Shown: piece by piece, positions 19,024-22,587 of the stretch
How positions within the stretch are numbered: position 1 is the first letter of the stretch
Layout: the number at the start of each line of letters is the position of its first letter
Assembly (NCBI GenBank): GCA_003290465.1
Contig: CP030759.1
Location: 1,827,144-1,891,143 of the forward strand
Reading direction: 5' to 3'
Origin: Candidatus Sumerlaea chitinivorans
Lineage (GTDB): Bacteria > Sumerlaeota > Sumerlaeia > Sumerlaeales > Sumerlaeaceae
Length of the DNA: 64,000 nucleotides
The notes under the pieces: model-generated
What the model saw: the letters and a program-made list of their open reading frames with translations, nothing else
Told to the model about the DNA's origin: nothing
Database searches by the model: none
Program-made: the position numbers and the translations under genes

Positions 19024-21576
19024 CTAATCAGTCCCTCCTGTGGGAGATTCTTGCTGCACTTGTTGCAGGTCATAGGCACTTCGCACTGAACGTTCCAAGG
19101 TGTCGGGACGGGATGTCGGAGGCGGTGACGGCGTTTCCTCGCCAAACGTCGAATCATCCATCGCCGCAGATAAATCGTCGCTTGCCTCGAAACTTTGTTT
19201 CAGCGTCTTTGCCCAAACGGACTTACCAACGTCGGGCGCAGGCCCTGACCGCACCCGCGGATCTGGATCTTCAACTAAGGCGTTTGAGGTGGGCGCTCCC
19301 ACTTGTTCTGCCGTAGCGGTGACGCTTGGGGTCACGCGAGCTACCACTTGTAAGGGGACTTCCTTGCCATGGCGTGCAATCCGAAGTGTCGCGGCCACAG
19401 CTGGAGCTGTCGTCAGTGAAGTTGCTGGAGAGGAACCGGCCGCCGCCGATTGCGATTCGGGAAGTTCGGCAAGACGACGCAGATATTCCTCCTGCGAGCC
19501 AAACTCCACAACGACGATGTCGCCGGGTTCGATCGTCTCGTACGGGCGCGGGGACTGATCCACCACCACTCCACTGCCACGGTATTCCACAGGGTGGTCA
19601 AACGAGGCCAATTTCTCGTGGACCTCGCGCATTGTCAGGCCACGAAGGTCAGGCATCGAGCCCGTCGCAACTTGATCGTTGCGACGAGTCTGTTCCAGTA
19701 GAGTGGCCAAGGGGTTGCGTTCGCTCTCAGCCGCAACGGTTTGCACGTCGTACTGCGAACGCACGCGATCGAAGACGACGTTCAGGTCCTCGGATGTTTC
19801 CTCCTGCGGAACACTGACAGGCACCTTGAGCTGCTTCAAAGCAACCTCAGCAATTTCTTTGAAAACAGGAGCCGCAACTTGTCCACCGTAGTAGGTTCCG
19901 CCGCGCGGGTTATCAATCCAGACGTAGATACATATCCGAGGGTCTTCCAGGGGGGCCACCCCGCAAAACGAGCCAATATAGTTCCCGCGGGAGTATTTGC
20001 CGGTTTTGGGGTCAATCTTAATGGTCGTGCCGGTCTTGCCTCCAACGCGGTACTCGGCAAGTTGGGCCGCCTTACCCGTTCCCTCGCGCACCACGGCTTC
20101 CATCAACTGCTTCATTTTTTCCGTGGTGGCCGGACTGCAGACCCGGCGAAGTTTCTGGGGCAAGACTTGGGATATGATTTCTCCGCGGTAGTTGCGGATC
20201 TCGCGGACAATGTGTGGCTGCATGTAAATGCCATTGTTCATAATGGCTGCGGCAGCAGCCACCACCTGAATTGCGGTGACCTGAAGTTCGTAACCGTAGG
20301 CGAGAGAAGCAACGCTCTGCGCTGTCCATTGTTTGAGTGGCCGAAGTCTGCCAGTCGCCTCGCCGGGCAGATCGATGCCAGTTTTTTCGCCAAAACCGAA
20401 ACTTACAAGGTGCCGATAGAATTTCGCTGGGGTGAGACGCCCCATTGCGAGTTTTGCGGCTGCAACGTTACTCGATTGCGCGAAAGCGATGCGTATGGGC
20501 ACCGTCCCAATGGCGTGGGAATCCACGACTGTCCGGCCCGCAACGGTCCAGCGTCCACCTTCACAGTCCACCATTTCCTCAAGCGAACGAATCCGTTCCT
20601 CTTCTATGACGCTGGCGTACGTGAAAATTTTCATGACGGAACCGGGCTCGATGGCGTCGGTAATGGCGCGGTTGCGGCGCGTGAAATCCGTGGCCGCGGC
20701 AACATTGGTGAGGTCAAAAGTCGGGCAATTGGCCATGGCGAGCACTTCGCCGGTTTTGACGTCGTACACAACAGCCACACCAGCATCGGCCGAGAACATG
20801 TTGACGTATTTGCGGAGGGAGGCTTCGGCAGCGCGCTGAATGACCTCATCAATGGTCAACACGACGGTGTTGCCGTAGGTGCTCTCGAGGACCTCTGGGT
20901 CCACAGGCTCCATGACCGAATTCGCCCCCAGAGCATTCCTAAAGACCCGATCCACCCCGATTTTCCCTCTCAGTTGTTCGTCGTAAGAACGCTCCACTCC
21001 GGCGAGCCCCTTATTGTCGCCAGTGTTGTCGAGTTCGGTGTAGCCTATCACATGCGAGGCTAAATCTCGCCGTGGATAAATTCTTTTTGTCTCCTCCACA
21101 AAGTAGAAAGCGTTGGGTTGAATTGCAGGTGTCTTGGGTTCCACCATGCGCTTGCGGTACTTCTCCCTCACGGCAGCAATTGCCTGAAAAATGGCGTCAT
21201 CCTCGATTTTGCGCATGAGTGGGGTAGGCGACTTGTTACTCAACCGGTGGAAAACCGTGTCGAAATCGGTGTTCAAAGCCGTAGCGAGATCGTGGGCAAG
21301 ATCAGCTCGGACCGATGGGTGAATTCCGGAGGGATCCACATAGAGTGACTTCGTCAAGACACCCGTCGCGAGCTCACGCAGATTTCGGTCAAGGATCTTA
21401 CCGCGACACGGCATGTATTTGACGACCGTGTGATGCTGGCTGTCCGCTTTCTTGCGATAGTACTCGTAGCGGATTACCTGCAGGTAATACAAGCGCGCCA
21501 CTATCCCCAACGCGAGCAGAACCGTTGGTACCAGTAGGACAGCTCTTAGTCGGATAAGACGCGATCGCTCAGTCAT
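19024..21576 (-). CDS. ftsI: Septal peptidoglycan transpeptidase (class B PBP, FtsI/PBP3 type) with a PASTA domain
   Basis: An 850-residue class B penicillin-binding protein, anchored by one N-terminal transmembrane helix (about 10-33). The dimerisation/pedestal domain is followed by the transpeptidase domain. Active-site motifs are SVMK (Ser313 nucleophile), SSN (368-370) and KTG (514-516). A single PASTA-like domain (about 640-696, MPDLRGLTMREVHEKL to GDIVVVEFGSQ) follows, then roughly 150 residues of Ala/Ser/Pro/Thr-rich tail with no recognised fold. That makes it longer than most FtsI proteins (about 580-740). Its position before murE in the dcw cluster supports FtsI. The gap before it is 378 nt, unusual for this operon. 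Confidence 0.95.
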   Translation of the reverse strand: MTERSRLIRLRAVLLVPTVLLALGIVARLYYLQVIRYEYYRKKADSQHHTVVKYMPCRGKILDRNLRELATGVLTKSLYVDPSGIHPSVRADLAHDLATALNTDFDTVFHRLSNKSPTPLMRKIEDDAIFQAIAAVREKYRKRMVEPKTPAIQPNAFYFVEETKRIYPRRDLASHVIGYTELDNTGDNKGLAGVERSYDEQLRGKIGVDRVFRNALGANSVMEPVDPEVLESTYGNTVVLTIDEVIQRAAEASLRKYVNMFSADAGVAVVYDVKTGEVLAMANCPTFDLTNVAAATDFTRRNRAITDAIEPGSVMKIFTYASVIEEERIRSLEEMVDCEGGRWTVAGRTVVDSHAIGTVPIRIAFAQSSNVAAAKLAMGRLTPAKFYRHLVSFGFGEKTGIDLPGEATGRLRPLKQWTAQSVASLAYGYELQVTAIQVVAAAAAIMNNGIYMQPHIVREIRNYRGEIISQVLPQKLRRVCSPATTEKMKQLMEAVVREGTGKAAQLAEYRVGGKTGTTIKIDPKTGKYSRGNYIGSFCGVAPLEDPRICIYVWIDNPRGGTYYGGQVAAPVFKEIAEVALKQLKVPVSVPQEETSEDLNVVFDRVRSQYDVQTVAAESERNPLATLLEQTRRNDQVATGSMPDLRGLTMREVHEKLASFDHPVEYRGSGVVVDQSPRPYETIEPGDIVVVEFGSQEEYLRRLAELPESQSAAAGSSPATSLTTAPAVAATLRIARHGKEVPLQVVARVTPSVTATAEQVGAPTSNALVEDPDPRVRSGPAPDVGKSVWAKTLKQSFEASDDLSAAMDDSTFGEETPSPPPTSRPDTLERSVRSAYDLQQVQQESPTGGTD

Positions 21577-21644
21577 TTAACAACCTATTTCCAGAACAAG
21601 TCGCGGCAATGGCGGCCCTTCTATCTACATTCTGACTTTCAGAG

Positions 21645-21673
21645 TTGACTATACCGCCCACACCGTTTCTATT
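21645..21673 (+). promoter_or_regulatory. Sigma-70-like promoter for the candidate small RNA
   Basis: TTGACT (21645-21650) and TCTATT (21668-21673) are separated by 17 nt, matching the -35 and -10 consensus at five and four of six positions. Transcription would start near 21680, just before the structured region that ends in a terminator. Confidence 0.5.
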
Positions 21674-21679
21674 GCATGC

Positions 21680-21808
21680 CGCGAAGTCTGGAAAAAGCCG
21701 GATCAGCAGCGTTTGCTGGTCTGGAGGGGTACCGCAGCCAGCACTTTCTACGAGGACAGGAGCTGGAACCTAAGAGCGAAGGGGCCCACCTTCGCTCTTC
21801 TTTTTTCT
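21680..21808 (+). ncRNA. Candidate small RNA, antisense to the dcw operon, between ftsL and ftsI
   Basis: The predicted transcript is about 130 nt. It contains an 11-bp hairpin, CCGGATCAGCA (21698-21708) with TGCTGGTCTGG (21714-21724) including G-U pairs, and a 5-nt loop. A second possible pairing joins CCAGC near 21738 with GCTGG near 21763. The 3' end is the intrinsic terminator at 21773-21808. A promoter-like sequence precedes it at correct spacing. No sizeable ORF with a ribosome binding site fits it. It does not match 4.5S, 6S, tmRNA or RNase P RNA as I know them. Function unknown; the nearest targets by position are the ftsL 3' UTR and ftsI leader on the opposite strand. Confidence 0.5.
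21773..21808 (+). terminator. Intrinsic terminator of the candidate small RNA
   Basis: A 10-bp stem, AGAGCGAAGG (21773-21782) with CCTTCGCTCT (21789-21798), has a 6-nt loop and is followed by TCTTTTTTCT. The U-tract is on the plus strand, so it does not serve the minus-strand dcw genes. Confidence 0.85.
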
Positions 21809-21954
21809 GCCAGAACGTGTCCGCTTGTTCAGCTTCGGCTGTCGCAGGAACGGTCTCGGGAACAGGAACAGGAGCAATTTACCAACATTTCCACTTTTTC
21901 AGCAGTCGCAATCTACGAGAACAGTCGCCCTGCCGCCGATCCGGCTAAACTTTT

Positions 21955-22587
21955 TCAGTCCGCTTTTGAAAGACCCTCCTTGGTTGGGCTTAAATCCAAC
22001 GCTGGCCTTGCGCTGGAAGCTTTCTCTGCCCGCCCTTCAGCTGCGAACGCCTTCGTTGGCGCAAACAGATTCACCAAACGCTGGGCCATTCCCACAAACT
22101 CCGTGGGTTCCTCCACATTCGCCACCACCCTCGAAGAGCCCATTGGAGCAGCGTACTTCATCTGCAGCTCGGCGGGGATCGCGACCACGCCCCTCATGCG
22201 CGAGCTCACTTCTACCATCCCCAACTGAGTGCGCGCCTGTTGAAGGAGCTTTGGCATATCGCTGAGCATGGCCTTTTCGTTCTGCAAAATCTGCTCACGG
22301 ACGGTCAGCGCCCGTGCGCGTTCTTGGAAACGCTTCGCTTCGACGCGCAGGTCGCGAGTGTAGAACGGTAGCCACACCCGAGCAATCCCGAGCACGCAAA
22401 CGACTACGAACAGCAAGAGCCCAGCCGTCAGATGCCCTTCGTCGAGCGAAGGGGAACGCGGCTGCCGACTTTTTGCATGTGTGAGACTCCGGCTCACCAC
22501 TCTCGTTGCCATCACGCGTTTTCCTTTTGCAACTTTTCTGGCCGCCCGCTTCGAGCGTTCGGCATCAAACTTTCGCAATCCGTTCAA
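21955..22587 (-). CDS. ftsL: FtsL-like cell division protein
   Basis: A 210-residue bitopic protein: a basic cytoplasmic N-terminus of about 50 residues, one transmembrane helix (about 54-75, AGLLLFVVVCVLGIARVWLPF), then an extracytoplasmic helical region with coiled-coil character (RVEAKRFQERARALTVREQILQNEKAMLSDM). This topology, and the place directly after rsmH and before ftsI, are those of FtsL, which links FtsB/FtsQ to FtsI and FtsW at the septum. FtsL sequences diverge strongly, so the call rests on topology and synteny. The Ala/Ser-rich tail makes it longer than the usual 90-130 residues. Its 5' end overlaps rsmH by 23 nt if the annotated start is right; an internal ATG near residue 26 is an alternative. 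Confidence 0.75.
   Translation of the reverse strand: MNGLRKFDAERSKRAARKVAKGKRVMATRVVSRSLTHAKSRQPRSPSLDEGHLTAGLLLFVVVCVLGIARVWLPFYTRDLRVEAKRFQERARALTVREQILQNEKAMLSDMPKLLQQARTQLGMVEVSSRMRGVVAIPAELQMKYAAPMGSSRVVANVEEPTEFVGMAQRLVNLFAPTKAFAAEGRAEKASSARPALDLSPTKEGLSKAD

Follow-up and report, generated by a model that had tools for sequence, protein, structure and literature searches.

The genes for cell division and cell-wall synthesis are among the most conserved gene clusters in bacteria, and we know of few examples in which the divisome and the elongasome are coordinated at the RNA level. The RNAs and RNA-binding proteins that come closest to the locus studied here share some of its features and differ in others. 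In Rhodobacter sphaeroides, the small RNA UpsM and a 268-nt 5' leader of the dcw cluster lie before mraZ, an arrangement of the Rhodobacteraceae (PMC5089854). By description only, our locus shares with it an unusually long, lineage-restricted untranslated dcw RNA with a small RNA and a terminator, but UpsM precedes mraZ and arises by termination on the sense strand, whereas the present element lies between ftsL and ftsI (PMC5089854). The features that define the UpsM type, a place upstream of mraZ and a sense-strand terminator, are absent from our locus, where a strong terminator was found only antisense to the operon. Another regulatory RNA that originates near ftsI in the dcw cluster is FtsO of E. 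coli; it is processed from mRNA, sponges the small RNA RybB and differs in lying inside the ftsI coding sequence, and the part of its description available to us mentions no long-range stem or repeat array (PMC7815308).

CsrB and RsmZ resemble our element as structured RNAs with many copies of one short motif (PMC8383071), and in some relatives the motif of our element recurs in leaders close to start codons; this motif, however, reads UCCYG when the favoured strand is considered, three families that carry the array (f1, f7 and f13) lack CsrA and Rfam gives no match. In Vibrio anguillarum, the antisense RNA RNAbeta allows transcription to terminate within the fatDCBA-angRT operon, and the locus described here resembles it as a candidate intra-operon antisense RNA, by which the genes before and after it could come to be expressed unequally; the operon and lineage are unrelated, and termination is reported for RNAbeta, whereas here it would be a prediction (PMC8383071). 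Finally, the RNA-binding proteins KhpA and EloR (KhpB) of Streptococcus pneumoniae keep division and elongation in step, a precedent for control of such genes at the RNA level that offers a candidate type of factor only (PMC6403258). None of the UpsM, FtsO and CsrB types is the same as our element, from which they differ in position, motif and lineage. A paper with Sumerlaeota in its title mentions neither small RNAs nor riboswitches.

A long ftsL-ftsI gap in the class Sumerlaeia

The window, a 64,000-nt stretch of the Candidatus Sumerlaea chitinivorans chromosome, comes from a genome assembled as a single contig of 3.29 Mb (G000). An original prediction, made from these letters alone, had proposed a plus-strand small RNA of about 130 nt in a 378-nt gap inside the minus-strand dcw operon. 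Reading the coordinates directly confirmed the gap (Table 1), and its open reading frames are not credible genes, in agreement with that prediction. No tRNA or tmRNA was found within the window. The Rfam covariance search that had been suggested for the locus gave no credible match: no family reached gathering level over the whole window, and below that level, at permissive E-values in the gap and its relatives, only chance-level matches appeared. No known riboswitch or leader family matched the gap element at gathering score, and 6S RNA (RF00013) gave no match in the gap. The notion that the gap encodes a missing 6S RNA was rejected, the 6S RNA of this genome being at 858119-858300 of G000.

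Table 1. Features of the ftsL-ftsI region, in window coordinates
Feature	Position	Strand	Remarks
ftsL-ftsI intercistronic gap	21577-21954	-	378 nt; most likely read as ftsI leader RNA
ftsI	19024-21576	-	flanks gap
ftsL	21955-22587	-	flanks gap; Pfam FtsL
5' arm of closing stem, AGCCGGATCGGCGGCA on dcw mRNA strand	21931-21946	-	pairs with 21696-21711
3' arm of closing stem, CGCTGCTGATCCGGCT on dcw mRNA strand	21696-21711	-	same bases as the 5' arm of the 11-bp hairpin of the original prediction
Four-copy GYUCCYG-like motif cluster, GCTCCTGTTCCTGTTCCCGAGACCGTTCCTG on dcw mRNA strand	21845-21875	-	
Fifth copy of the motif, reading GCTCCTG on the mRNA strand (plus strand: CAGGAGC)	21757-21763	-	adjoins internal hairpin
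-35-like TTGACT	21645-21650	+	TTGAC on plus strand between ftsI and stem in 16/26 Sumerlaeia
-10-like TCTATT	21668-21673	+	17-nt spacer from TTGACT
Internal hairpin with U-rich tail (plus-strand intrinsic terminator)	21772-21806	+	kept in 7/7 Sumerlaeaceae examined
Predicted antisense sRNA, about 125 nt	21680-21806	+	putative; start placed from the -10-like element

Comparison with 39 Sumerlaeia genomes in 14 families, in which f1 is the window's family (Sumerlaeaceae) and all relatives are draft genomes, located FtsI in 35 of the 39. A scan of public genomes gave, besides loci of other phyla, one Sumerlaeaceae locus, SSF23, the closest named relative found for this FtsI. Estimated from open reading frames, the ftsL-ftsI gap exceeded 300 nt in 33 of 34 entries, counting two whose ftsL end was set by hand and an SSF23 entry nearly identical to G005. 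The sole exception was G024 (locus L017, family f14), whose 75-nt gap points to an apparent loss of the element. Among 79 FtsI loci of other phyla, measured similarly, the median gap was 20 nt and none was longer than 250 nt; the gap was about 20 nt in one genome from another class of the same phylum. Since the gap is long in this class and short in other phyla and in the other class, the element appears, on this genome comparison, to be specific to the Sumerlaeia.

An AGGAG sequence resembling a Shine-Dalgarno site lies at about 21965-21990, by the end of ftsL and ahead of the 5' arm of the stem; it is followed by no obvious start codon and is placed in the same way in the Sumerlaeaceae loci L006, L007, L008 and L010.

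A covarying closing stem around a motif array

The gap holds a long-range stem whose outer arm extends to 21946, so that the real element exceeds the span 21645-21808 in which the original prediction had found a promoter, a hairpin and a terminator. These signals are present where they had been placed, but the larger structured element, which recurs across the class, had been missed; reading a single genome caught only part of it. Equivalent arms were found in 26 genomes, which fall into eight families (f1, f4, f5, f6, f7, f8, f12 and f13), enclosing loops of about 170-375 nt. The stem is doubtful in G008, and one doubtful case beyond the 26 genomes belongs to f2; no long-range stem was found in f2 (G023), f3, f9, f10 or f11.

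Compensatory change, the mark of a structured RNA element, is found throughout the conserved helix. In an alignment of 25 sequences, 17 of 17 aligned pairs were changed on both sides, with 105 cells of double-sided change compared with 36.6 in shuffles, and the core CCAG/CTGG varies to CCGG/CCGG, TCAG/CTGA, CCAA/TTGG and TTAG/CTAG. Stem cells were paired in 85.4% of cases against 25-45% with slid partners, a percentage that is inflated because the arms were initially chosen by complementarity; the comparison of double-sided changes with slid partners is not inflated by this choice. This observation is further strengthened by 21 genomes tested singly: when each gap was dinucleotide-shuffled 100 times, only 0-3 of the shuffles equalled its best long-range stem. 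Thus covariation was found at this locus, but in a different helix from the 11-bp hairpin for which it had been anticipated, which is not kept. When the whole element was aligned with MAFFT and folded as a consensus by RNAalifold, no interior structure emerged that could be trusted.

On the dcw mRNA strand, the sequence enclosed by the arms repeats TCC(C/T)G, most often within GTTCCCG, GCTCCCG or GTTCCTG. In the 26 genomes, 173 sense copies were counted against 39 expected from dinucleotide-preserving shuffles, and the opposite strand carried a single copy; the window itself has five copies on the mRNA strand and none on the other. Clusters of at least four copies occurred only in the ftsL-ftsI gap, both in 464 kb of the window's own genome and in 200 kb of G026, and on this ground a general intergenic repeat was rejected. 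Single motifs were scattered evenly over both strands, and many further matches elsewhere fall within coding sequence.

The composition of this region raises the question of Rho, for which a pyrimidine-rich leader could serve as a loading or attenuation region, stopping transcription between ftsL and ftsI under modulation by the stem. Inside the stem, C exceeds G in many genomes, UC and CC pairs are frequent, and several AT-richer genomes have a run of U immediately after the 3' arm. G nevertheless still makes up 20-30%, C is not above G in G000, G001 and G007, and to our knowledge Rho requires neither a fixed 7-nt motif nor a conserved closing stem, so that we regard this explanation as improbable.

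The motif in leaders of ftsZ, mreB and other genes

A repeat-query search followed by inspection of the matches yielded leader candidates picked by score and not systematically. Among them were mRNA-sense clusters just before ftsZ (G026, G034 and G038), mreB (G034 and G038), dnaB (G026), a gyrB-like gene (G030), secA and a serA-like gene (both G023) and a MerR-domain gene (G014). A systematic check of the last 110 nt before the gene counted 28 sense and 10 antisense motif copies for ftsZ (30 genomes) and 40 sense and 7 antisense copies for mreB (26 genomes). Leaders with at least two copies belong almost entirely to families f7 and f13, where several GTTCCCG or GCTCCCG copies stand in mRNA sense close to the start codon of ftsZ (L267, L268, L270, L273, L276, L277, L279 and L280) and of mreB (L293-L297, L300-L303, L305, L307 and L308). 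The other families are mostly without motifs in these 110 nt. In the window's own family no motif was found in the ftsZ leaders inspected, and therefore no shared regulon is visible there. Across the genomes compared, the array before ftsI thus occurs widely in the class, and its sharing with ftsZ and mreB is more restricted.

The genome G023 of family f2, which has CsrA and no clear closing stem, carries tandem GATCCCG in 5' leaders at L235 and L238, with six copies before the serA-like gene and four before secA.

The many motif copies also call to mind a CsrB-like sponge for CsrA, given that the plus strand is rich in CAGGA and CGGGA. The CRGGA complement does resemble the GGA elements of CsrB (PMC8383071), and the window's family has a terminator on that strand. 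Arguing against a sponge, CsrA (PF02599) gave no match in the single-contig G000 or in any f1, f7 or f13 genome, families in which the array persists, and the ftsZ and mreB leaders carry the motif on the strand opposite to the one that CsrA would need. With CsrA absent and no Rfam match to Csr or Rsm families, a CsrA sponge was rejected in f1, f7 and f13, and overall we consider this account barely credible. CsrA is patchy in the Sumerlaeia as a whole, being detected in 13 of 39 genomes.

Acting strand, possible antisense transcription and a proposed function

Core-stem G-U pairs number 8 on the mRNA sense strand against 1 on the opposite strand, or 6 against 1 when counted as family-and-column events (one-sided p 0.06). 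The mean fold z is -3.35 for mRNA sense and -2.86 for plus, and exposure of the motif rose above shuffles in 19 of 26 genomes on the sense strand against 14 of 26 on plus, where the CRGGA repeats were no better exposed than in shuffles. The mRNA strand is favoured because of the G-U asymmetry, the fold z, the motif exposure and the mRNA-sense motif in other leaders. The best-conserved promoter-like block, TTGAC, is on plus, opposite this favoured strand. Given these modest asymmetries, it is most likely as part of the dcw mRNA that the stem and array act. The stem is also an inverted repeat that could form a cruciform, and T-runs flank it on both strands in some genomes, as might suit an element acting in DNA, either as the cruciform itself or as a site for a chromosome-organising protein. 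The motif strand bias of 173 to 1, the G-U asymmetry and the mRNA-sense motif in other leaders make such a DNA-level role very improbable.

On the plus strand, the predicted promoter TTGACT-N17-TCTATT was read at 21645-21673, although it is not listed under a stricter rule requiring A at position 2 of the -10. The strong terminator that had been predicted is also there, as an 11-bp hairpin, AAGAGCGAAGG-GGCCCA-CCTTCGCTCTT, at 21772-21799, followed by CTTTTTT to 21806; it is the strongest of five listed sites, where 3.5 would be expected by chance under the same loose rule. The 132-nt plus-strand RNA folds at -52.2 kcal/mol (z -2.2 against shuffles). Conservation in relatives bore out this part of the original prediction incompletely. 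TTGACT and the terminator recur in all seven Sumerlaeaceae genomes examined, and the terminator hairpin has three G-U pairs on the plus strand and none on the opposite strand. A clear -10 is present in only three of the seven, as TCTATT in the window and G001 and TCTAAT in G007, with spacers of 17-18 nt, and is absent from the remaining relatives. The other plus-strand hairpin of 11 bp, at about 21698-21724, is not conserved in the Sumerlaeaceae except for its 5' arm, which is kept because the same bases form one arm of the long-range stem. Across the class, the plus-strand TTGAC block occurs in 16 of 26 genomes against 2.4 expected from shuffles and is preceded by AT-rich sequence. A strict class-wide scan for intrinsic terminators, which missed four of the seven Sumerlaeaceae terminators (afterwards read by hand), found no plus-strand site in f7 or f13.

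Two variants of this region were seen in relatives. Loci L006 and L135 (G001 and G007) have an extra perfect hairpin, GCCTCCGTG...CACGGAGGC, between TTGACT and ftsI, which the window is without. In f7, the loci L022, L025 and L023 and those of G034 and G038 carry CAGACCGTCAAC..CGAATT on the mRNA strand (TTGACGGTCTG on plus) 40-220 nt before ftsI; no recognisable -10 was found for this block.

The antisense RNA of about 125 nt, complementary to the 3' stem arm and part of the mRNA-strand motif region, is plausible as a transcript overlapping the element in Sumerlaeaceae. The small RNA originally proposed thus has family-level support from TTGACT and the terminator, but it covers only part of the feature. 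That it is the whole of the matter, a short antisense RNA acting in cis on the operon with the remainder incidental, would fit the conservation of promoter-like and terminator elements within the Sumerlaeaceae and has a known cis analogue in RNAbeta of Vibrio anguillarum (PMC8383071). Yet the stem and array are conserved far outside the family and outside the span of this RNA, and the 11-bp hairpin is lost in relatives, which leaves the cis-only version quite improbable, slightly more so than the Rho explanation.

The main rival is a trans-acting plus-strand small RNA, transcribed from the TTGAC promoter, whose CRGGARC repeats would pair with GYUCCYG leaders of ftsZ, mreB and other mRNAs. Such an RNA accounts better for the TTGAC block, with its excess over shuffles and AT-rich upstream sequence; the plus-strand terminator of all seven Sumerlaeaceae is consistent with it, and its sequence complements the motif-bearing ftsZ and mreB leaders. 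It accounts worse for the stem G-U asymmetry and for the Sumerlaeaceae terminator, which would stop the RNA short of the second stem arm and of most motif copies. The clear -10 in three genomes only, the lack of plus terminators in f7 and f13 by the strict scan (which overlooked four of seven in Sumerlaeaceae) and the motif exposure favouring the mRNA strand also weigh against it, and we hold a trans-acting RNA to be unlikely, though less so than the other alternatives.

The explanation that we prefer, with about even confidence, is an element of the ftsI leader in the dcw mRNA, with a motif array read by a factor and, in Sumerlaeaceae, an antisense overlap. In this explanation the stem would keep a series of binding sites exposed in the ftsL-ftsI gap, and a putative RNA-binding factor, other than CsrA, would recognise the UCCYG motifs. 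This factor may set the output of ftsI and the downstream wall-synthesis genes relative to the upstream genes, whether by a change in translation or by cleavage or termination of the RNA within the leader. Families f7 and f13 may have ftsZ and mreB under the control of this factor as well, by way of the motifs in the leaders of both genes, which would couple septation to elongation. A further, antisense layer of control would be present in Sumerlaeaceae, where the plus-strand small RNA that stops at 21806 would base-pair with the 3' arm and thereby open the stem.

More tentatively, and with clear reservations, we suggest that the array and, in some families, the leaders of ftsZ, mreB and a few other core genes may belong to a new class-wide RNA system of the Sumerlaeia, in which one protein factor or complementary RNA would co-regulate division, elongation and possibly replication. 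A covarying element kept in most of the class, together with motif sharing in two families, leads to a testable hypothesis for these uncultivated bacteria, namely that a single factor may act on several cell-cycle mRNAs.
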